Part shown: one piece after another, positions 1 through 7,264 of the stretch | Layout of the letters: each line of letters opens with the position of its first letter | Position numbering within the stretch: position 1 is the stretch's first letter | Assembly: GCA_027063545.1 (NCBI GenBank) | Contig: JAMORN010000136.1 | Coordinates: 1 to 7,264 of the forward strand | DNA length: 7,264 nucleotides | Direction: 5' to 3' | DNA from: JAMORN01 sp027063545 [NCBI: bacterium] | Lineage (GTDB): Bacteria > JAMORN01 | Program-made: the position numbers and the translations under genes | The notes under the pieces: model-generated | What the model was told of the DNA's origin: nothing | The model's input: only the letters and a program-made list of their open reading frames with translations | The model's database searches: none

Positions 1-417
1 ATAAAAACTAATATAGGATTATCAAAGAAAAAAAGTGAAGAGATTATAAGAGAGTTAAAAGGGAGCGAATATAAATTAAAAGGAAATATAAGGGATTTAG
101 CATTAATGGCTTATACTATTTATGCATATTTAAATTCTGATTCTTCTGAGGAAGAGGCAGTAAATAAGGCTATAGAAAATTATTGGAAAAGATCAGAATA
201 TGAAGATGAAGGTATAGATGAATTATCTTTAAGGAATATTATAGATAAAATGGTAGATGAAGGTAGCATTGATGCTCAAAAGTTATTAAAGGATTTTCAA
301 TATAGATTTGCCAAAAAGGCAATGGAGTTATCTGGGGGAAATAAAAGAAAAGCTGCAAAGATGTTAGGATTAAAAGACGGAAAAAGTATAGATAATTGGT
401 TAAAAAATAAAATTTGA
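1..417 (+). CDS. C-terminal fragment of a sigma-54-type (enhancer-binding) transcriptional activator
   Basis: The reading frame is open from the first base, so this is the 3' end of a longer gene; 138 residues are visible. Residues 28-33 read GNIRDL, which matches the GN(V/I)REL signature near the end of the AAA+ domain of NtrC-family activators. A linker rich in acidic residues follows. Residues about 98-137 form a Fis-like helix-turn-helix (FAKKAMELSGGNKRKAAKML and the following helix), where the GGN-K-KAA-LG pattern is typical of these regulators. Such proteins bind upstream DNA and use ATP to open promoters held by sigma-54 RNA polymerase. The sensor domain and most of the AAA+ domain, including any GAFTGA loop, lie outside the window, so the signal and sigma-54 dependence cannot be confirmed. 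The Met codon at 106 falls inside the GNIRDL region and is not the start. The stop is TGA, one base from the stop of the convergent operon. What it regulates is not visible. Confidence 0.8.
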   Translation: MKTNIGLSKKKSEEIIRELKGSEYKLKGNIRDLALMAYTIYAYLNSDSSEEEAVNKAIENYWKRSEYEDEGIDELSLRNIIDKMVDEGSIDAQKLLKDFQYRFAKKAMELSGGNKRKAAKMLGLKDGKSIDNWLKNKI

Positions 418-418
418 T

Positions 419-994
419 TTAAAAATTGTTTATTATTGTATCTATATCATCTTCTATGTAGCCGTAAACTTTGATACTTCCGTTATCTTCATCTATAGAT
501 ATTTCTATTTCGTTATGTGGGGTTAAATCTTTTAAGGTATATTTAGAGGAATAAAAAGTTATTTTCTGATTTGTTGAGCCTATAATGCCACCATTTGTAA
601 TATCTCTTTTAGTTTCATTATAGGGTTCGCTAATGAGAATATCAATATAATTTAGTATTTCATTATATTTTTTTTCAACAATTTTTAAAGGATAGCCTGT
701 ATAAAGTATAATAGATAAATTAAGGTTTTTCACTTTTTTAGAAAGTTCTAGTATTTCTTTATATTGATCTAAAGGTTCTCCTCCTAATATAGTAATACCT
801 TCTATATCATTTTTTATTTTTTCTATTTGCCTTATTAAATCTTCAATTTTATATAAATTTTTTGGTTTAAATTCCCACAATTCCTTATTCCAGCAGCCTT
901 TACATCTAATAGAGCAACCTTGTACCCAGAATACAAATCTAATACCAGGTCCATAAATTAAACTTTTTTCTTCAATAAAGGCTATATTTAGCAT
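419..994 (-). CDS. Radical-SAM protein of the NrdG/activase type (4Fe-4S single-cluster family)
   Basis: This 191-aa cytoplasmic protein has the CX3CX2C motif at C27, C31 and C34, which would hold the [4Fe-4S] cluster that cleaves S-adenosylmethionine. The preceding YGPGIRFVFWVQG matches the usual activase N-terminus. ILGGEPL (about 69-75) is the SAM-binding GGEP motif, and YTGYPL (98-103) and SEPYNETKRD with GSTNQKI (about 122-145) are hallmarks shared with anaerobic ribonucleotide reductase activase. The length is near-complete for that family. No NrdD or other glycyl-radical enzyme is present; the protein closes an operon behind DUF2997 and DUF1257 genes, so it probably serves that system, either making a radical or modification on a partner or acting as its Fe-S component. 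The ATG is four bases beyond the previous stop and has no clear ribosome site, which suggests translational coupling. It is the only plausible ATG, because the frame is closed upstream at 1016-1018. It could still be an ordinary NrdG with nrdD elsewhere. Confidence 0.85.
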   Translation of the reverse strand: MLNIAFIEEKSLIYGPGIRFVFWVQGCSIRCKGCWNKELWEFKPKNLYKIEDLIRQIEKIKNDIEGITILGGEPLDQYKEILELSKKVKNLNLSIILYTGYPLKIVEKKYNEILNYIDILISEPYNETKRDITNGGIIGSTNQKITFYSSKYTLKDLTPHNEIEISIDEDNGSIKVYGYIEDDIDTIINNF

Positions 995-998
995 ATTA

Positions 999-1460
999 TT
1001 AATAATTATGTCTAACTAAAATTAGTTTTATTTTATTCCCAACTTTTTTCTCCTTCACAGTATATCCTTTTTCTTTTGCTCGTTTGATTATTTCATTTTT
1101 TTGTTTTTCTATAAAATCTTTTTTTTCTTCTTCTATTTTTCTTAATTTTTCTTCAAATCTTTTTCGTTCTTCTTCTAATTTTGCTTCTTCTATTAATTTT
1201 TTTTGTTCTAAATATACTTTATTATACTCTTTTTCTAAGGAAGCTAAAAAGGTTTTATTTTCCTTTTCATGCCAGCTATCATATTGGTATATAAATTGTC
1301 CATTTTCATATAAAAACTTTTCTTCTATATACACTTTATTTTTATTCTCTATAATAAGTTCATTGCCTTGATCTATATATGAAATATTTAAATTATTTAA
1401 TGCTTTTAATAGTAATTCTTTATTAATAAATGGTGTTGTATAAATTCTTCTTTGGCTCAT
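999..1460 (-). CDS. DUF1257 / Ycf35-like protein with an inserted charged coiled coil
   Basis: This is a 153-aa soluble protein. Three parts resemble the DUF1257/Ycf35 family: a start of the MSxx type followed by a helix reading LLLKALNNLNISY (about 17-29), a central YQYDSWHE segment (59-65) followed by FLASLEKEYN, and an end with GYTVKEKK (132-139), then KIKLILVR (143-150). Between about residues 86 and 122 lies a stretch almost wholly of K, E and hydrophobics, a predicted long helix or coiled coil that seems absent from short Ycf35 proteins. The family's molecular function is not established. An in-frame ATG seven codons upstream (1481) gives 160 aa, but I chose 1460 because it has an AGGAGA site seven bases upstream and gives the family-like N-terminus. 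It starts one base after the DUF2997 stop, so the two are probably co-translated and may form a complex. Family assignment is from memory of sequence patterns. Confidence 0.75.
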   Translation of the reverse strand: MSQRRIYTTPFINKELLLKALNNLNISYIDQGNELIIENKNKVYIEEKFLYENGQFIYQYDSWHEKENKTFLASLEKEYNKVYLEQKKLIEEAKLEEERKRFEEKLRKIEEEKKDFIEKQKNEIIKRAKEKGYTVKEKKVGNKIKLILVRHNY

Positions 1461-1461
1461 T

Positions 1462-1668
1462 TTATTTTCTCCTATTTTCAATTTTTCTTTTATTTACAAT
1501 ATTATTTTTTTGATAGAATTCATCAGTTTTTTTACTCTCCAGCAGATGTAAATCTTTTCCTAATATATCATCTAATTCTGATATACACATTTCACCTTTA
1601 ATTCCTTCTGTTTTTGCTATAATTTTTCCATCTTCATCAATTGTTATTATAATTCTTTCTTCCCCCAT
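1462..1668 (-). CDS. DUF2997 family small protein
   Basis: This 68-aa protein matches the DUF2997 pattern throughout: a beta-strand pair RIIITIDEDGKIIAKTEG (5-22), the G-x-x-C element at KGEMC with Cys28, a helix reaching ILG (35-37), and a T-D-E-F-Y motif (48-52) in place of the usual EYY/EFY. After that comes a short basic tail (about 59-68, RKIENRRK) that the family core does not need. The biochemical role of DUF2997 is unknown; the proteins are usually encoded beside DUF1257 genes, as here. The single conserved Cys28 could touch an Fe-S partner, but this is inference. The ATG has a perfect AGGAGGT site that overlaps the stop of the preceding 641-aa gene, 11 bases between the two genes. 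Its site is the strongest in the operon, hinting that this subunit is made in excess. Confident as a gene; fairly confident of the family. Confidence 0.8.
   Translation of the reverse strand: MGEERIIITIDEDGKIIAKTEGIKGEMCISELDDILGKDLHLLESKKTDEFYQKNNIVNKRKIENRRK
1468..1473 (-). promoter_or_regulatory. Ribosome binding site that sets the DUF1257 start
   Basis: On the minus strand this reads AGGAGA, seven bases before the ATG at 1460. It lies inside the last codons of the DUF2997 gene. It supports the 1460 start over the upstream in-frame ATG at 1481, which it could not serve. Confidence 0.8.
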
Positions 1669-1674
1669 AATAAT

Positions 1675-1681
1675 ACCTCCT
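1675..1681 (-). promoter_or_regulatory. Strong ribosome binding site of the DUF2997 gene
   Basis: On the minus strand this reads AGGAGGT, six bases before the ATG at 1668. It overlaps the TAG stop of the 641-aa gene (1680-1682), so termination and re-initiation are directly adjacent. It is the closest match to the consensus in the window. Confidence 0.8.
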
Positions 1682-3605
1682 AGTTTTGTTTTTTAGCAGA
1701 TAATTTAGCCTTCAATCTTTGTGCTTCTTCTTTAGCTTCTTCATAATCTTCCCAGAATTCTATTTCTAAATATTTTTCATTTTTATTAGCATATAATATA
1801 CCTATCTTAGGAAGAGACTCCAAAGATTCTAATTTTTCTTCTATATTTTTATCTTTTTCTTTTTTTGGAGTATTATTATTCTTATTACTTACGTTTTTCA
1901 CGACCATTTGTAGAGAGGTTTTTTCTTCATCAATTTGTTCTTTATTTTTTCTATTTAGATAATTTTTGGTTGTATCTATTTTAGTATTTAAATCTTTAAT
2001 TTCTTCTTCCAGAGTTTTTATCTCTTGTTCTAATTGTTTTAATTTATCTTGAGGGATTTTATCTTTATTTTTTAATTCTTTTCTTTTATACTCTAATTTT
2101 TTTGTTATCTTTTCTTTTTCTTTAGTTAGCAGGTTATAATATAATTCATTTAAACTTTTATTAATTCTTTTTCTTTCTTCTTTTGATTTTGTAGGAAGTT
2201 CATCTTTTAATTTTTTTAGTTTTTTTATAATATTTTTTTCTTCATTCAATTTTAAATCTATAATTAACTCTTCTATTTCATTTAATTTTCTTTCAAAGTT
2301 TAGCTTAACATATTCCCACTCACTATATAGTTTATCTTTTGTTGAATTATTTGGAGTATAGAATGGTATTATTTTATATCTATAAGTTATTTTAACGTTT
2401 TTCCCATCATCACCTATATTTTTAGGGGTATAATTTTCAAAAGAGTCTTTATTAATTAATTCAGATAATTTAATCTTCCCTAAATCTACTTCTTTACTTT
2501 CTTTTATATTTATTACTTTACCATTATATATAATCTCTTTATTAATTAAGTTTTGTCTTATTTCTTCAGGAATAAACTTATAAACATGAAATTTTTTTAA
2601 TTCATTAAAAATTTTTTCAATCTTTTCTTTTTGATTATTATCTTCTAATTTAATAGCATAAAAATAGTTGCTATTTTCTATAAACTGTTTAGGAAATATA
2701 TAAATAAATTTAGAATTACCATAAAATATAGGAAGTTTTATTTTTTTCAATTGCTCATAATCAAAAGCATATATTTCATTTTCTAAAGAAAGATTTTTTA
2801 TAATATCAAAATCAGACTCTTTAGAGGTTATAATTGTTGTATTTTCTACTCTTTTAATTATATCAAAAATAGGATCGTTTTTTTCTATTTTGGGGATATA
2901 TAGAAAGGAGTAGTTTTCATCTTTATATTTTGAAAGTTCTTTTTTTACATATTCCATATCGCAAAAGTCATTTTTATTGGGATATACATATATAGGTGTT
3001 TTATATTCTTTATTTGAGAGTTCTGTTATTTTCCCATTTATTATTTCATAATTTGTATTCTCCCAAAAGTTATAAGAGAAATATCTATGTAAATATTCTA
3101 TTTGATTTTTATTTAATTCAATTATTAGACTTTCGTTAGATAGTGTTGTTAACGCCATTGGAAGAAAATAGCCTTTAGATTTTTTTTCTTTAGGATTTAT
3201 TAAAATAAAACTACCTATAAACTTTTCTTCTAAATTTTTTATATCACCCGCAGTTTTTGTTCTTATAAATACATATTTTAGACTTTCTAAATATTTTTCA
3301 TTTTCAATTTTATTTGTTATTAAATATATTCTATTTTTATTTTGAGGTTTTGATATATTAAATATAAGTTTTATTATACCATCACTATCTAATTTTTCAG
3401 TATATATAAGAATAGAGCTATTTTTAGCAGTTTCTAAATTATATACTAAATCAGTGTAATTCCCATAAAAATTTTTAATATTATCAATAGTAGTTTTTGT
3501 GTTAATTGGATTATTTTTTAGCCAAAAGTTTTTATATTTGAAATTATAAAAATATAAAGTTTTAATTTTTTGTTGAGGAGAGATAAATGTTTTTTCTTTT
3601 TTCAT
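1680..3605 (-). CDS. Uncharacterised 641-aa protein: degenerate PLD-like region plus long coiled coil
   Basis: I do not recognise a named family. Residues about 50-185 have the alternating strand-helix pattern of a phospholipase-D-like half-domain (SSILIYTEKL, NRIYLITNK, KFIGSFILINP, then KGYFLPMALTTLSNESLIIE and a helix ending RYFSYNFWE), but the H-x-K-x4-D catalytic motif is not there. A second similar unit may span about 230-345 (YSFLYIP, TTIITSK, FIYIFP, YFYAIKL). A KITYRYKIIPFYTP segment lies near 405-418. Residues about 425-560 are dominated by K, E, L and I in heptad-like order, a long coiled coil, followed by an Asn/Lys-rich linker and a compact end, IGILYANKNEKYLEIEFWED (601-620) with EEAQRLKAKL. 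No signal peptide or membrane segment is seen. It is therefore probably a cytoplasmic scaffold or binding subunit, perhaps an inactive nuclease fold. The start has AAGGAGT five bases upstream and follows the 541-aa gene by 12 bases. The PLD resemblance is inference. Confidence 0.6.
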   Translation of the reverse strand: MKKEKTFISPQQKIKTLYFYNFKYKNFWLKNNPINTKTTIDNIKNFYGNYTDLVYNLETAKNSSILIYTEKLDSDGIIKLIFNISKPQNKNRIYLITNKIENEKYLESLKYVFIRTKTAGDIKNLEEKFIGSFILINPKEKKSKGYFLPMALTTLSNESLIIELNKNQIEYLHRYFSYNFWENTNYEIINGKITELSNKEYKTPIYVYPNKNDFCDMEYVKKELSKYKDENYSFLYIPKIEKNDPIFDIIKRVENTTIITSKESDFDIIKNLSLENEIYAFDYEQLKKIKLPIFYGNSKFIYIFPKQFIENSNYFYAIKLEDNNQKEKIEKIFNELKKFHVYKFIPEEIRQNLINKEIIYNGKVINIKESKEVDLGKIKLSELINKDSFENYTPKNIGDDGKNVKITYRYKIIPFYTPNNSTKDKLYSEWEYVKLNFERKLNEIEELIIDLKLNEEKNIIKKLKKLKDELPTKSKEERKRINKSLNELYYNLLTKEKEKITKKLEYKRKELKNKDKIPQDKLKQLEQEIKTLEEEIKDLNTKIDTTKNYLNRKNKEQIDEEKTSLQMVVKNVSNKNNNTPKKEKDKNIEEKLESLESLPKIGILYANKNEKYLEIEFWEDYEEAKEEAQRLKAKLSAKKQN

Positions 3606-3610
3606 TTTTT

Positions 3611-3617
3611 ACTCCTT
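3611..3617 (-). promoter_or_regulatory. Ribosome binding site of the 641-aa gene
   Basis: On the minus strand this reads AAGGAGT, five bases before the ATG at 3605 and directly after the TAA stop of the 541-aa gene, with no room for a separate promoter or terminator. Confidence 0.75.
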
Positions 3618-5243
3618 TTATTTTTGAATGATTTCTTTAATAAAATTAGTTAATGTAGGATCAAGAACTTCTAATCCATATTTAACTTTTGAGATATTTG
3701 TTGTTTCACATATTTTTAATTTATCAGGATTATTATTATCTAAATAGATAAAATTATTTAAAGAAGACGGAGATTCCCATATACTGTATTGATTTAGATC
3801 TTTAAAAAACATAAAATATCTATTATGAGGACCTAATTTATTGTTTTCTTTAAAGATATCTTCGATATAAAATATCCTAACATTAGGAGCTTCACTTTTT
3901 ACTATCTCTAATTTATTATTTTGTCCTTTAATATTTTTTAAAGTTATTAATGTTATATTAGATAAATTATTAAAATTTTTTATAATATTTAAAAATATTC
4001 TTTGTTGAATTTCATTAAAGACATATCTATCGTAATAAATAATATAGTTAATTGGGAAATCTACTTTTCTTTGGAAGATCTCTGTCAGTTCCTCAAATTT
4101 ATAGGTTTTGTTTAATTCCAAAGATATTAAAGGCTCTAAATAAGAATTTATACTAGAATCATTATCTGGATTTAGATCATCATAGGCTACTAAATGAAAT
4201 AAATGATCTATTTTATTGTGAGAAAAATAATTATCAATTTTTCTTTTTTTATAATCATTTTTAAAAATATAATCGTATAACTCATGGGAAAATGTACTTA
4301 ATGCCTTGTTATATATAATATTTTGTAATTTATTTTCTACACCAATAGAATAAAAATTGCTTTCTAAAATATTATCATAAATAAAGTCAATAATTTTTTT
4401 TGCTTCATCAATATCAAAAGGTTTTATAGGTAATTTTTTAATTTCTATATAATCAAAATTATAAAAATCATTTTTTAGTTCCAAATAATTATTCTCATGG
4501 TTATAAATAAATGTATCAATATAAAAATTTTGAATTTCTTCTATATCAATATTATCTTTTATTTGTTTTAATTTAACTTTTAATCTGTTAGACTTTTCGT
4601 CCCATAAATTATTAAAGAAATTTTTTAATATTTTTTCTTTATTAATATTTTTTAAATTTAAAGTTTCTTTTTTTATTTGGCGAGTTTCGATTTCCCCAGA
4701 AAAATATATTACTGCTGAATCATTAGAATCTGCAATTTCTAAATGAATTTCTATATTTCTATTTTTTTCATTTTTTTCATTTATCCCATAAATTTTGTTA
4801 TCTTCGGGTAATATCTCTATTTTAGAAATATTATTTTTATCATTTTTCAATGATAACCAGAATCCTTCTTTTTCTATAGGTATATTTAGTTTTTGTATTT
4901 TATCATCATTTATGGGCTTTACTCTTTCTAAATAAATTACTTTATTGTTAAAAAATGTATTAGGTCTATCATCTATATACCAAATTTTATATTTTCCAAA
5001 TTCGATTTCTTCCATCATATGTGTATCAATAACTTTTTGCCCTTTTGAAGTAAGATTAAGAGAATTTTTTTCAATAAGGTCTAAATTTCTTAAATATTCT
5101 ATAATTCTATTATTAATAAAATTATCCTCAAATCTTTTTCCTTTTAAAAATTTAACAACATCCTCTCTTCTTATATATTTTTTAACTTTCAATATACTTA
5201 TAAACCAGGAAATTTCTATATTTTTTTTGGCTTTAATAATCAT
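3618..5243 (-). CDS. Uncharacterised 541-aa protein: winged-helix-like N-terminus, possible PLD-like C-terminus
   Basis: I do not recognise a named family. Residues about 10-75 look like a winged helix: a helix SWFISILK, a second helix REDVVKFLKG, a recognition-type helix NNRIIEYLRNLDLI, then a short hairpin NSLNLTSKG. The middle (about 80-390) is mixed strand and helix without a motif I can name. The C-terminus (about 396-495) reads INYIIYYDRYVF, a helix, ITLITLKN, VRIFYIED, then LGPHNRYFMFF and a WESPSSLNNF loop. That order resembles phospholipase-D-like domains in which the active-site strand carries H-D-R-Y; here the equivalent would be H473, N474 and R475, so catalysis is doubtful. It may bind nucleic acid for the helicase encoded immediately upstream. 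The start is supported by AAGGAGA seven bases upstream, inside the helicase's last codons; only three bases separate the two genes. It is cytoplasmic by absence of signal or membrane segments. Gene certain, domains tentative. Confidence 0.65.
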   Translation of the reverse strand: MIIKAKKNIEISWFISILKVKKYIRREDVVKFLKGKRFEDNFINNRIIEYLRNLDLIEKNSLNLTSKGQKVIDTHMMEEIEFGKYKIWYIDDRPNTFFNNKVIYLERVKPINDDKIQKLNIPIEKEGFWLSLKNDKNNISKIEILPEDNKIYGINEKNEKNRNIEIHLEIADSNDSAVIYFSGEIETRQIKKETLNLKNINKEKILKNFFNNLWDEKSNRLKVKLKQIKDNIDIEEIQNFYIDTFIYNHENNYLELKNDFYNFDYIEIKKLPIKPFDIDEAKKIIDFIYDNILESNFYSIGVENKLQNIIYNKALSTFSHELYDYIFKNDYKKRKIDNYFSHNKIDHLFHLVAYDDLNPDNDSSINSYLEPLISLELNKTYKFEELTEIFQRKVDFPINYIIYYDRYVFNEIQQRIFLNIIKNFNNLSNITLITLKNIKGQNNKLEIVKSEAPNVRIFYIEDIFKENNKLGPHNRYFMFFKDLNQYSIWESPSSLNNFIYLDNNNPDKLKICETTNISKVKYGLEVLDPTLTNFIKEIIQK

Positions 5244-5246
5244 ATA

Positions 5247-7264
5247 TTAATCTCCTTTTTGAGAAATTATATATATACTATTTGCTAAATTTTTTAAGTC
5301 TTCGGATTTTGAATAGTTTGAAAAGTAAGTATGATTTCCTATTATAACTAATTGGTATCTTGCTCTTGTTATAGCAACATTAAGTCTATTTGGATTATCC
5401 AAAAATCCATCTTTTTTAGTTTGTACCATAGAGAGAAATACAATATCAGCTTCATGTCCTTGAAATTTATCTACAGTATACAGCATTATTTTTATTTTTC
5501 TTCCCAGTTCTTCTCCATATCTGAATATAGAATATGCATTAAGTCCTGTTAATTCTCTGAGTTTATCTCTTATTCTACTTTCTTGTCCTCGATAGAATGT
5601 AAGGCAGGCAATTGTCCAATCTTTATTTTCTTCGGGATAAGGATGTTGTAAGGCCCACTCTAGAAAATCTTTAAGTTCTTTAATTAATACTTTTATTTCT
5701 TCTTGATTATAATTTTTAATGGTTTCCCCTCTAACATCAATCCATACAGATCTTTGAGAATATTTATTATAATTCCAATTTCTTAATATTTTTATTTGTT
5801 GAGGTTGCTCTAAATCTTTTAAAGCATTTTTTTCTTTATAGAATTGTTCACGAGGAAATCGAGAAATATCTGGATGCATTCTATGTTGATATACTAAAAT
5901 TTCTCTCCTTTTTTCTAAATCTTCTTTATTAAAACCTTCATTAATTACTCTAGATTTATTTATTTTAATTCCTTGTATTCCATGGATTAAACTTTCTAGA
6001 ATGGAAGGGAAGAATATAGCAGCCTTTTCATCTATTAACTCAATAATTTCTTTCTTATTATATTCTTTATATGTTAAAGGAATTAATCTATTAATAGTTT
6101 CTTTATAATGTTTAATTTTTTTATTTTCACGAAGTCTTAACTGATAAATTCTATCAAGTCTCCAAGCAATTTCTTCAGCCCAATTTTTTTCTGTTAATAA
6201 TGTGTTTATATTTTGTACTATTTTAAAAAGATTATTTGAGTTATTGTCCTTATTTTTTAAATATATTTTATTATAATTAAAATAATATGAAGTTAAATAT
6301 GCATGTTTTGTTTCTTCCCAATTATTTTTTCTTAATATTATATGAGTTTCAGGGAGATAGTCTAAAACTTCATTAATATAAGCCTGGTTTATAAGAATTA
6401 AATCATAGGCAACTAGCTTAAGACGTTGGTCTGTTAGATTTTTTATATCTAAAAATTCTATATTATCTATAACATAGTTTTTAGTATTTATTAAAGTTAA
6501 ATTTTCAATAACAAGAATTCTTTTTTCAAAAATTTTTTCATGATACTGATTTTTATATCTATTTATATATTCGTTAAGAAATTCTTTTAAAGTTGAAGAG
6601 CCTATAGGAAATATAATTTTTAAATCATTATTATATTTAAAGATTTGATTTAGATGAAAGAGAAAAAAGATAGCTTCTTTTAAATCTTTATCATTTACAA
6701 TAGTATCAATATTTGCTACTATATATTCTTTATTTGTAAATGGAGAAAGTTGCATAACATCACCAACTAAAATCCATTTTTTAGCATATAAGGCTGGCAC
6801 TAAAAATTCTTGAAATGTTGTTTTACTTGATTCATCTATTATAAGATAATCAAAAGAAGGTACAATTGGGGTATTAACATTTTTTCTACCTTTAAAATAA
6901 GGATGCTGTAGAATTCCAATAGTTGTCCCACATACTAGATTGGCACTATCAAGAATAAGTTTTAAATCTTCATCTGACATATTATTTCTTTCTTTAATAT
7001 CATCTAATTGAAATTCCCTAACATTTTCACTAATTCTATTTTTATCACCAATTCTTATAGGTAGAATATTAAAATATTCTAAGTAACTTTTTCCATCTTT
7101 AAATTTATTCTTTAATCTTTCTAAAACATTATCAACAGCAACATGAGTTGAACCAGCTAAAAGAATTTTTTTTCCTTGTTTGATTAGTTGTAAAATAAGT
7201 TCCAATATAACAGTTGTTTTTCCCGAACCAGGAGGCCCTTCTAAAATTGCAAAATCAGGAGTGG
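5247..7264 (-). CDS. UPF1-like superfamily 1 helicase, N-terminus cut by the window edge
   Basis: The frame is open to the right edge, so the 5' part is missing; 671 residues are visible. Motifs in order (visible numbering): Walker A GPPGSGKTT at 9-17; motif Ia AGSTHVAVDNVLE near 36-48; GTTIGIL near 112-118; motif II IIDESSKTTFQEF from 141, with D143-E144; motif III GDVMQL at 167-172; motif IV YQHRMHPDISRFP near 458-470; motif V VDKFQGHEADIVFLS near 597-611; motif VI LNVAITRAR near 627-635. This is a complete AAA_11/AAA_12-type helicase core, predicted to move along or unwind DNA or RNA using ATP. Motif II is DESSK rather than the common DEA-Q of UPF1 relatives. About 260 residues (roughly 190-450) between motifs III and IV form a large insertion, partly K/N-rich, with no motif I recognise. 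A TTG at 7205 could be read as a start, but it lies after Walker A and is not one. The gene is the first visible member of the operon. Confidence 0.92.
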   Translation of the reverse strand, partial: TPDFAILEGPPGSGKTTVILELILQLIKQGKKILLAGSTHVAVDNVLERLKNKFKDGKSYLEYFNILPIRIGDKNRISENVREFQLDDIKERNNMSDEDLKLILDSANLVCGTTIGILQHPYFKGRKNVNTPIVPSFDYLIIDESSKTTFQEFLVPALYAKKWILVGDVMQLSPFTNKEYIVANIDTIVNDKDLKEAIFFLFHLNQIFKYNNDLKIIFPIGSSTLKEFLNEYINRYKNQYHEKIFEKRILVIENLTLINTKNYVIDNIEFLDIKNLTDQRLKLVAYDLILINQAYINEVLDYLPETHIILRKNNWEETKHAYLTSYYFNYNKIYLKNKDNNSNNLFKIVQNINTLLTEKNWAEEIAWRLDRIYQLRLRENKKIKHYKETINRLIPLTYKEYNKKEIIELIDEKAAIFFPSILESLIHGIQGIKINKSRVINEGFNKEDLEKRREILVYQHRMHPDISRFPREQFYKEKNALKDLEQPQQIKILRNWNYNKYSQRSVWIDVRGETIKNYNQEEIKVLIKELKDFLEWALQHPYPEENKDWTIACLTFYRGQESRIRDKLRELTGLNAYSIFRYGEELGRKIKIMLYTVDKFQGHEADIVFLSMVQTKKDGFLDNPNRLNVAITRARYQLVIIGNHTYFSNYSKSEDLKNLANSIYIISQKGD
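5251..5257 (-). promoter_or_regulatory. Ribosome binding site of the 541-aa gene, inside the helicase 3' end
   Basis: On the minus strand this reads AAGGAGA, seven bases before the ATG at 5243. It forms part of the last sense codons of the helicase gene, whose TAA stop lies between the site and the ATG, so the two are probably translationally linked. Confidence 0.75.

Follow-up and report, generated by a model that had tools for sequence, protein, structure and literature searches.

A seven-gene operon linking a UPF1/MkoA-like helicase and an active-site-less PLD-fold protein to an AAA+/radical-SAM module, a putative RNA-directed defence system

The window examined here is the whole of contig JAMORN010000136.1 (positions 1 to 7,264; C136 below) of the assembly GCA_027063545.1 of JAMORN01 sp027063545, a 1.57-Mb assembly in 355 contigs, and its minus strand carries six open reading frames (ORFs) that run from 7262 to 419. 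Comparison with relatives indicates that these ORFs are the remainder of a seven-gene operon that encodes, in order, a Ycf46-like AAA+ ATPase, a UPF1/MkoA-like helicase, a protein that we call U, a pseudo-PLD protein, a DUF2997 protein, a DUF1257-like protein and a radical S-adenosylmethionine (radical-SAM) protein. The operon appears to be a conserved unit of the helicase–PLD kind, for which a role in defence stands at about an even chance. Our best explanation, to which we give roughly equal weight for and against, is an unnamed and putative mobile system of RNA-directed surveillance or defence, in which U has taken over the effector site of the PLD protein and an AAA/radical-SAM module has been gained. 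An initial annotation of the window had proposed a six-gene operon; the six genes it listed are all there, but the unit in relatives has a seventh, the AAA+ ATPase.

The relationship of the operon to simpler ones became apparent from its relatives on plasmids. The best of 316 tblastn matches of the helicase to plasmid records were two Vibrio plasmids and one Pontibrevibacter plasmid, in which the helicase is followed by a protein of 365–369 residues, a PLD-family protein and a sigma54 activator. Single-sequence searches with the two large proteins of the window, of 541 and 641 residues, gave no match in plasmids, and the 541-residue protein matched only its own genome among 59; the helicase, searched likewise against viral contigs, gave seven stretches, none of which was confirmed. 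An alignment of three helicases was then scanned against one genome per species, and the best 80 of at least 137 confirmed loci were used, so that the counts below describe a sample. Iterated profiles started from the 541-residue protein and from the second genes of the plasmids converged (57 and 57 proteins), and those started from the 641-residue protein and from the plasmid PLD proteins gave nearly the same sets (56 and 55 proteins); hhalign matched the two sides at 99.9% for U (E = 3.5e-31 over 338 columns) and at 99.9% for the PLD protein and the 641-residue family (E = 1.3e-31). The two large proteins, which had been annotated as unknown, thus prove to be divergent relatives of the U and PLD partners of the plasmid operons, and their standing as orphan families is ruled out by this profile relationship.

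We distinguished 47 class-A loci, in which the order helicase–U–PLD holds as far as it is readable, and 15 class-B loci, the window included; a further 22 (L013, L065–L068 and L070–L086) fell into neither class, with no readable U, PLD or strong AAA match. Both classes have homologous helicase, U and PLD genes in the same order, and the activator type found in class A (by its own profile, in 29 of the 47 loci) also adjoins the window's operon. Unlike class B, however, class A has HKD sites, U proteins without an added domain and mostly shorter helicases (complete class-B helicases have 1046–1150 residues), and it has neither the AAA gene nor the trio of DUF2997, DUF1257-like and radical-SAM genes: DUF2997, the Ycf46-like AAA+ and a strong radical-SAM match were found in 0 of 47 loci. 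Of the 11 class-B loci whose downstream DNA can be read, ten have the trio, L016 being the exception, and its order is DUF2997–DUF1257–radical SAM in nine of the ten. The AAA+ gene is present in all 11 readable places, ten times ahead of the helicase and, in L020, behind the radical-SAM gene.

In a helicase tree of 61 rows, class B formed one side of a branch with a Shimodaira–Hasegawa-like approximate likelihood ratio (SH-aLRT) support of 90, which requires one change compared with 13.8 expected in shuffles; the loss of HKD also needs one change on this tree. Because the tree was a quick one without bootstrap and with several long branches (L039, whose helicase frame is broken, was omitted), a single origin of class B is favoured and not proved. 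Class B is nevertheless spread over eight phyla, one of them archaeal: Bacteroidota, Campylobacterota, Pseudomonadota, Myxococcota, Nitrospirota, Mycoplasmatota, Patescibacteria (as labelled) and Methanobacteriota. Since only the AAA+ and helicase genes are readable in Mycoplasmatota and Patescibacteria, the trio itself was seen in six phyla. The occurrence of one branch in eight phyla suggests horizontal spread, and complete operons exist in the environmental isolates Shewanella decolorationis S12 and Amphritea atlantica C1R06.

A held-out search of 386 sampled genomes with the class-B U profile gave one match beyond the window's own genome. The locus so found, L157, was located without the helicase and has all seven genes in order, with a PLD protein that has no HKD; in the class to which its genome belongs, 3 of 25 genomes match the class-B U profile, itself included. 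Two further loci were added: L158, which reads AAA–helicase–U as far as the contig end, and L159, which by eye occupies the corresponding chromosomal position in a congener of the L157 genome and has the helicase, U and pseudo-PLD genes without AAA or trio, on U and pseudo-PLD matches that are weak (about 40 bits). These additions bring the AAA+ gene to 13 of 14 places where it could be read. The repeated co-occurrence of the helicase and the two large proteins with the trio, which the initial annotation had named as a check, holds within one helicase clade (11 of 13 loci), but the triad also occurs without the trio, in the 47 class-A loci. In the family of L157, an AAA+ matching the whole profile occurs in 2 of 19 genomes, only those with the operon, and 16 other genomes of the family have only a paralogue that matches the ATPase half of the profile. 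Such patchy presence resembles that of mobile defence genes, although alone it is no proof of defence.

Several observations on these loci are recorded here in their own right. A MoxR-like AAA protein (AAA_lid_8, with a weak bpMoxR match) adjoins the gene sets of both L157 (13413–14399) and L159 (5635–6513), in each case beside ClpA-like and TsaB-like genes as named by eye. Among class-A loci, L047, from a metagenome-assembled genome labelled Cyanobacteria, is nearly identical to the Phycisphaerales locus L044, which suggests a mislabelled or mixed bin, and a Prometheoarchaeum contig (L036:1773–12585) carries a class-A set together with, on the opposite strand, a second PLD protein with one HKD and a second helicase.

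The class-B PLD proteins have lost the HKD motif. At least one HKD is kept by 44 of 44 class-A PLD proteins, and none is found in the 12 readable class-B proteins or in L157 and L159 (0 of 14 overall); these counts use the strict motif, and looser H-x-K matches in L010, L015 and L016 fall outside the HKD columns. We modelled the two large proteins of the window with AlphaFold2 from alignments of the window and scan-locus rows only. The model of the 641-residue protein has a predicted local distance difference test (pLDDT) score of 84.4, and its residues 36–364 are predicted to form a tandem PLD fold (VIA-align Z = 19.1 against vaccinia F13 over 279 residues, and 18.3 against PLD3). This protein has no HxK motif and no MkoB match in the PADLOC scan, and it was rejected as an active HKD nuclease on the ground that class B has no HKD motif.

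The C-terminal part of U, by comparison, has gained domains in class B. The model of the 541-residue protein (pLDDT 79.8; predicted template modelling score 0.54) has a helical N-terminal part that is winged-helix-like by eye. The initial annotation's guess of PLD-like/winged-helix proteins is thus borne out by the predicted PLD fold of the 641-residue protein and by this appearance of the 541-residue one. Residues 368–522 are predicted to have the same fold as the C-terminal domain of human MITD1: Foldseek matched 2ymb and 4a5z at E = 3.3e-6 to 8.5e-5, and VIA gave Z = 12.4 with a root-mean-square deviation of 2.9 over 139 residues, the next family reaching Z = 8.4. The sequence signal, unlike the fold, is weak; MITD1 was the sole match of the domain profile among PDB sequences (searched to E = 10), at E = 0.98. 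Ten of the 12 complete class-B U proteins bear an MITD1-like domain, with D, T and H-x-R (D..T..H-x-R) invariant in the ten aligned copies; nine of the ten built the profile, and the one outside it, in L017, scores 44.5 bits, compared with no match above 8 bits in class-A U proteins. In L020, from Thermodesulfovibrio, the place of this domain in U (3352–4995) is taken by an RNase_Zc3h12a domain at 4585–4905 (64.7 bits, cut-off 23), whose best match in a single-sequence PDB search is ZC3H12B, weak alone at E = 0.033. This exchange indicates that the end of U behaves like an effector slot, at least one occupant of which belongs, by sequence, to an RNA-cleaving family.

The second addition in class B is the AAA+/DUF2997/DUF1257/radical-SAM module. 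The operon's AAA+ protein is Cdc48-like (Pfam AAA 1e-30; p97 family 1e-76 in PDB sequences), and we take it to be of the kind named Ycf46. The trio in the initial annotation held for DUF2997, which lies just above the Pfam gathering cut-off in the window (25.5 versus 24.1 bits), and for the radical-SAM protein, whereas the DUF1257 assignment comes from profile comparison: the 160-residue protein has no Pfam DUF1257 (PF06868) match and the copy in L014 scores 11.7 bits against a cut-off of 22.2, but hhalign of its family with DUF1257 members gave 95.8% (E = 8e-9), and the class-B profile matches L126, which scores 56 bits to DUF1257. A G-x-x-G-x-x-C motif is invariant in 29 of 29 aligned DUF2997 copies (ten from class B and 19 from elsewhere; window 1462–1668 and L111–L130) and is possibly a modification or cofactor site. 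All ten class-B radical-SAM proteins aligned, the window's among them, keep CxxxCxxC and GGEP. The window's protein is nearest to NrdG (9.5e-31) and to pyruvate formate-lyase (PFL) activases (1.1e-21; PFL-activating enzyme 3c8f, 6e-10); its NrdG score (TIGR02491) of 106.8 bits is under the equivalog cut-off of 126.1. As the class-A triad occurs without the trio and DUF2997 occurs without the helicase, the trio is a separable module. The module thus extends beyond the operon, and what sets the present loci apart is its union with helicase genes. At L116:7356–8138, a DUF2997 gene adjoins an NrdG-like radical-SAM gene split in two ORFs, with no helicase, which is possibly a broken remnant of a stand-alone trio.

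The window also gives a lead to regulation, through an ORF convergent with the operon that the initial annotation had passed over, as it had the AAA+ gene. Contig C17 ends inside an ORF (L138:11958–12824, N-terminal 289 residues) that encodes a CARF domain and the start of an AAA domain (RtcR_PspF1 1.7e-70; Pfam RtcR 31.3 bits, cut-off 23.1), and contig C241 ends inside an ORF for the first part of a Ycf46-like AAA+ (9e-45). The ends of C17, C136 and C241 share no overlapping bases, and the joins of activator and AAA+ are thus inferred; the head on C17 and the tail in the window are probably one activator that faces the operon's end, with the AAA+ gene early in the operon. This tail lies on the strand opposite to the operon, unlike the activator of class A, which is the last gene on the same strand. 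Strong sigma54 sites were found in 12 of 28 class-A loci with an activator, and 11 of the 12 (near-consensus sites in L019, L021, L026, L030, L045, L046, L052, L053, L054, L056 and L069) lie 36–69 bases before the helicase, so these operons look directly controlled by the activator. None was found in the 18 loci of the set without activator, which consists of 16 class-A and two class-B rows (L007 and L020). Several rows of the test are near-copies, and its shuffles were of single bases; L018, L043 and L060 were omitted from the test, their start being too near a contig end. In the window's genome, TGGCAYN5TTGYW has 12 matches compared with 0 for the reversed control, and one of them (C241:2907–2922, 0.10 expected in contig C241 at one mismatch from TTGC) precedes the AAA gene and an intervening DUF1232 gene (L139:3075–3452). 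Because the pattern was widened to TTGY after this site was known, it is a lead and not a clean test; five matches at two mismatches in the window itself (1.94 expected) were not used. Excerpts of PMC7790460 describe the CARF domain of RtcR as binding tRNA halves with cyclic phosphate ends, which by analogy hints at the signal that the activator may receive in the window's organism.

Defence-like genes lie in the flanks of two (L012 and L015) of the four class-B loci whose flanks were partly scanned with PADLOC. L012 is flanked by a DruE-like helicase (4e-54), a UvrD/GajB-like protein (1.5e-31) and PDC-S69 (4e-117), and L015 by NERD-UvrD (6e-57) and a P-loop protein with restriction-enzyme-like matches; the same partial scan gave one weak match for L014 and none for L016. 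Of the class-A copies, the one on a V. aerogenes plasmid has cas2, a long cas1 of 3012 bases and a RAMP gene in its vicinity (L005:9418–12707); dnd genes lie about 9 kb from the one on the Pontibrevibacter plasmid. These neighbours were picked and not sampled, and we therefore claim no enrichment. A stand-alone CARF2 protein (PADLOC 2e-70, L159:14054–14686) sits beside the helicase–U–pseudo-PLD set of L159.

Among named systems, Mokosh and CoCoNuT come closest. The helicase core of the window is nearest to the MkoA models (Table 1) and its partner has a PLD fold; the class-A PLD proteins likewise lie near DrmC and MkoB (MkoB 2.7e-11). The operon differs in its addition of U, AAA+, DUF2997, DUF1257-like and radical-SAM proteins, none of which, to our knowledge, is part of Mokosh. 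Type I MkoA carries a kinase domain, and no kinase was among the Pfam matches of the full-length L012 helicase. Excerpts of PMC11291487 present Mokosh as an MkoA helicase with a PLD nuclease that is said to degrade viral transcripts; as the window's PLD protein has no HKD active site, membership was rejected for want of an HKD-bearing PLD nuclease. In the parts of PMC11090510 consulted, CoCoNuT types II and III are described as having a UPF1-like helicase, an effector partner that bears a winged helix and interchangeable nuclease domains (HEPN, Vsr, PLD), and a frequent RtcR-like neighbour. With its UPF1-like helicase, exchangeable effector domains and RtcR neighbour, this is the nearest published design that we found, to the extent of those parts. 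Here, however, a Cdc48/Ycf46-like AAA+ stands instead of McrBC and U bears an MITD1-like or Zc3h12a domain; neither McrB GTPase nor McrC was among the Pfam matches of the window proteins or of the L012 operon, and membership was rejected on that account. A further parallel appears in cyanobacteria, where excerpts of PMC4284462 list DUF2997–Ycf35 (DUF1257) genes beside a ferredoxin gene; the two families again stand side by side with the gene of an Fe-S protein, but this is a ferredoxin instead of a radical-SAM protein, and the cluster as listed there has no helicase.

Searches of the open-licence literature returned no description of the seven-gene operon and, as the initial annotation had supposed, no named system of such composition. 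The class-A operon of helicase, U, PLD and CARF/sigma54 activator has no published name there either, and an earlier description is possible. A match to the NCBIfam model 'PLuB system helicase-like protein' is far under its cut-off (103.8 versus 999), and 'PLuB system' is absent from the literature searched.

Taken together, these results lead us to the following model. The helicase, U and the active-site-less PLD-fold protein would form the part that engages nucleic acid; the PLD partner in class A, with its intact HKD, is presumably a nuclease, and its class-B version may now be a scaffold or sensor. The effector place would now lie in the domain added at the C-terminus of U, which is MITD1/PLD-like in most loci and a Zc3h12a-type RNase in L020. 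The added module would consist of the Cdc48-like (Ycf46-type) AAA+, DUF2997, DUF1257-like and activase-type radical-SAM proteins. Binding of foreign RNA by the helicase part may set off both the AAA+ motor and the effector on U. The radical-SAM enzyme may act by priming or modifying a partner, for which the simplest candidate is the 68-residue DUF2997 protein with its invariant GxxGxxC; in the window's organism, the adjoining CARF-sigma54 activator probably turns the operon on, perhaps by sensing damaged RNA. The observations behind this model are the gene content and order, the separability of the two modules, the loss of HKD, the PLD and MITD1-type folds of the structure models, the RNase domain of L020, the radical-SAM motifs and the class-A sigma54 sites; a complex and a role in defence, together with trigger, substrate and chemistry, are inferred. 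A joint reading of the whole as a radical-based RNA-directed immune effector would go further: the radical-SAM enzyme would put a radical or cross-link on the GxxGxxC of DUF2997, the AAA+ and DUF1257-like proteins would hold or deliver DUF2997, and U, through its MITD1-type domain, in which D..H-x-R is invariant and whose place is taken by the RNase in L020, would supply a novel catalytic centre instead of the inactive HKD pair. This we regard as a long shot.

A number of observations weigh against the defence interpretation or the unity of the operon. The defence neighbours were chosen as promising, and the flanks of L011 and L008 look ordinary by eye. The operon is seldom encountered (in one of the 385 other genomes sampled), and its layout varies: L017 has an extra gene for 194 residues and DUF2997 last, the AAA+ gene is last in L020, and L016 and L159 have helicase, U and pseudo-PLD without the trio. 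The U protein of L009 has no added domain, which is thus not always required. As for regulation, of the 15 class-B loci, many of them with short flanks, the window's alone was seen with the CARF activator, no strong sigma54 site was found in 16 of 28 activator-bearing class-A loci or in nine of nine other class-B operons, and the C241 site has TTGT for TTGC and is equalled at one mismatch in 20 of 200 contig shuffles. None of the 20 DUF2997 neighbourhoods taken from other genomes, moreover, has a relative of the helicase, U or PLD protein; in 19 of them DUF2997 is above the Pfam cut-off and in one (G246) below it, with weaker places in G257, G321 and G124 omitted. In cyanobacteria DUF2997 adjoins a ferredoxin gene, and on both counts the module has some role apart from the operon. 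The initial annotation had named, as evidence against a single machine, a trio placed elsewhere together with scattered homologues of the other three genes; the former agrees with what was found for DUF2997, yet the helicase, 541- and 641-residue families are not scattered.

The separate life of DUF2997 also supports the possibility that two unrelated modules merely travel together, the AAA/DUF2997/DUF1257/radical-SAM part having its own housekeeping-type job and hitch-hiking with the helicase genes. DUF2997 and the Ycf46-like AAA occur without the helicase in 8 of the 20 neighbourhoods, helicase–U–PLD occurs without the module in 47 loci, and L016 and L159 do without the trio. Against this, the genes lie few bases apart across the six trio-readable phyla, the trio order is kept in nine of ten loci, and the module is found in the same clade as the loss of HKD and the added U domain, which suggests joint function; we consider co-travel quite unlikely. 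One may also postulate that the radical-SAM enzyme is itself the effector in the manner of viperin, making a modified nucleotide or modifying the invader's nucleic acid while the other proteins deliver the substrate. It shows weak similarity to prokaryotic viperins (2.1e-7 in the window and 0.0029 for the L012 copy), has CxxxCxxC and GGEP intact and co-occurs with a nucleic-acid helicase; however, its matches to NrdG and PFL activases are far closer than that to viperin (1.8e-5; all NCBIfam), and the class-B proteins have 182–221 residues, compared with viperin profiles of 257 and 281 positions, so that a viperin-style role seems very improbable.

A different alternative keeps the proteins together but assigns them to an RNA-damage response, or RNA repair and decay, rather than to antiviral defence: the RtcR-like activator would sense broken RNA, the helicase complex would clear or salvage it, and the AAA/radical-SAM module would act on stalled ribonucleoproteins. 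Human Regnase-1, the namesake of Zc3h12a, works with UPF1 in mRNA decay. The RNase domain of L020, the strength of the RtcR_PspF1 match beside the window's operon and the sigma54 sites of class-A operons would all fit such a role, as would the activity of UPF1-type helicases on RNA and single-stranded DNA noted in parts of PMC11090510. Against it, neither an RNA ligase nor a cyclase was among the Pfam matches of the window proteins or the L012 operon, an activator is missing from most class-B loci as far as seen, and the distribution is patchy, with some defence-like neighbours. We consider the RNA-damage explanation unlikely and retain the RNA-directed surveillance or defence system described above as our best explanation.

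The gene calls in the window agree with the initial annotation in giving six same-strand genes separated by 1–12 bases; in the order of transcription, the gaps from 7262 to 419 are 3, 12, 11, 1 and 4 bases (Table 1). These values hold for a DUF1257-like start at ATG 1460; the alternative TTG 1481 would overlap DUF2997 by 20 bases, and all ten aligned class-B copies share Met-Ser at the former, which favours ATG 1460. The ribosome sites predicted at the junctions are present as AGGAG/AGGAGG Shine-Dalgarno-like sequences before the DUF1257-like, DUF2997, 641-residue and 541-residue genes, but none is clear upstream of the radical-SAM gene, and the helicase start falls outside the window. The SF1 (superfamily 1) helicase was correctly identified and is incomplete because the window is the complete contig: it begins near Walker A at the contig edge, lacks about 450 residues relative to the N-terminal parts of aligned relatives, and its N-terminus was not found in the window's genome, presumably owing to an assembly gap. 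The convergent plus-strand ORF ends one base from the radical-SAM gene. A Pfam scan of the window recognised the helicase, radical-SAM and DUF2997 proteins and not those of 541, 641 and 160 residues, and Rfam at the gathering threshold gave no match in the window.

Table 1 Features of the 7,264-nucleotide window, with the evidence for each.
Feature	Position	Strand	Evidence
RtcR/PspF-type CARF-AAA-HTH (helix-turn-helix) sigma54 activator, C-terminal 138 residues	1..417	+	PADLOC RtcR_PspF1 1e-10
Radical-SAM protein, 191 residues, NrdG/PFL-activase type	419..994	-	Fer4_12 1.2e-32, Radical_SAM 8e-11
DUF1257 (Ycf35)-like protein, coiled-coil-like insert (by eye)	999..1460	-	hhalign, start context
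DUF2997 protein, 68 residues	1462..1668	-	PF11211 25.5 bits, cut-off 24.1
Pseudo-PLD protein, 641 residues: predicted tandem PLD fold, long coiled-coil-like helices, small C-terminal domain	1680..3605	-	hhalign, AlphaFold2
Predicted tandem PLD fold without HKD, residues 36-364 of the 641-residue protein	2514..3500	-	VIA-align
Protein U, 541 residues: winged-helix-like N-terminal part, middle domain, MITD1-like domain	3618..5243	-	hhalign, AlphaFold2
Predicted MITD1-type PLD-like domain, U residues 368-522	3678..4142	-	Foldseek, VIA, profile search
UPF1/MkoA-like SF1 helicase, N-terminus missing	5247..7262	-	AAA_12 7e-37, AAA_11 2e-29, PADLOC MkoA 1.2e-76
Helicase Walker A, GPPGSGKTT	7213..7238	-	Pattern match; the genome's sole match to that pattern

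The operon gives a defined context to the DUF2997, DUF1257/Ycf35 and Ycf46-like AAA+ families, of which ycf35 is listed for plastid genomes in the part of the literature consulted. It places an MITD1-like domain in prokaryotes, adjoining a Cdc48-like ATPase, and the occurrence of a Regnase-type domain in an operon with a UPF1-like helicase recalls the eukaryotic pair of UPF1 and Regnase-1. More broadly, it suggests how a helicase–nuclease system may lose its nuclease site, shift the effector to another subunit and add an AAA+/radical-SAM module.

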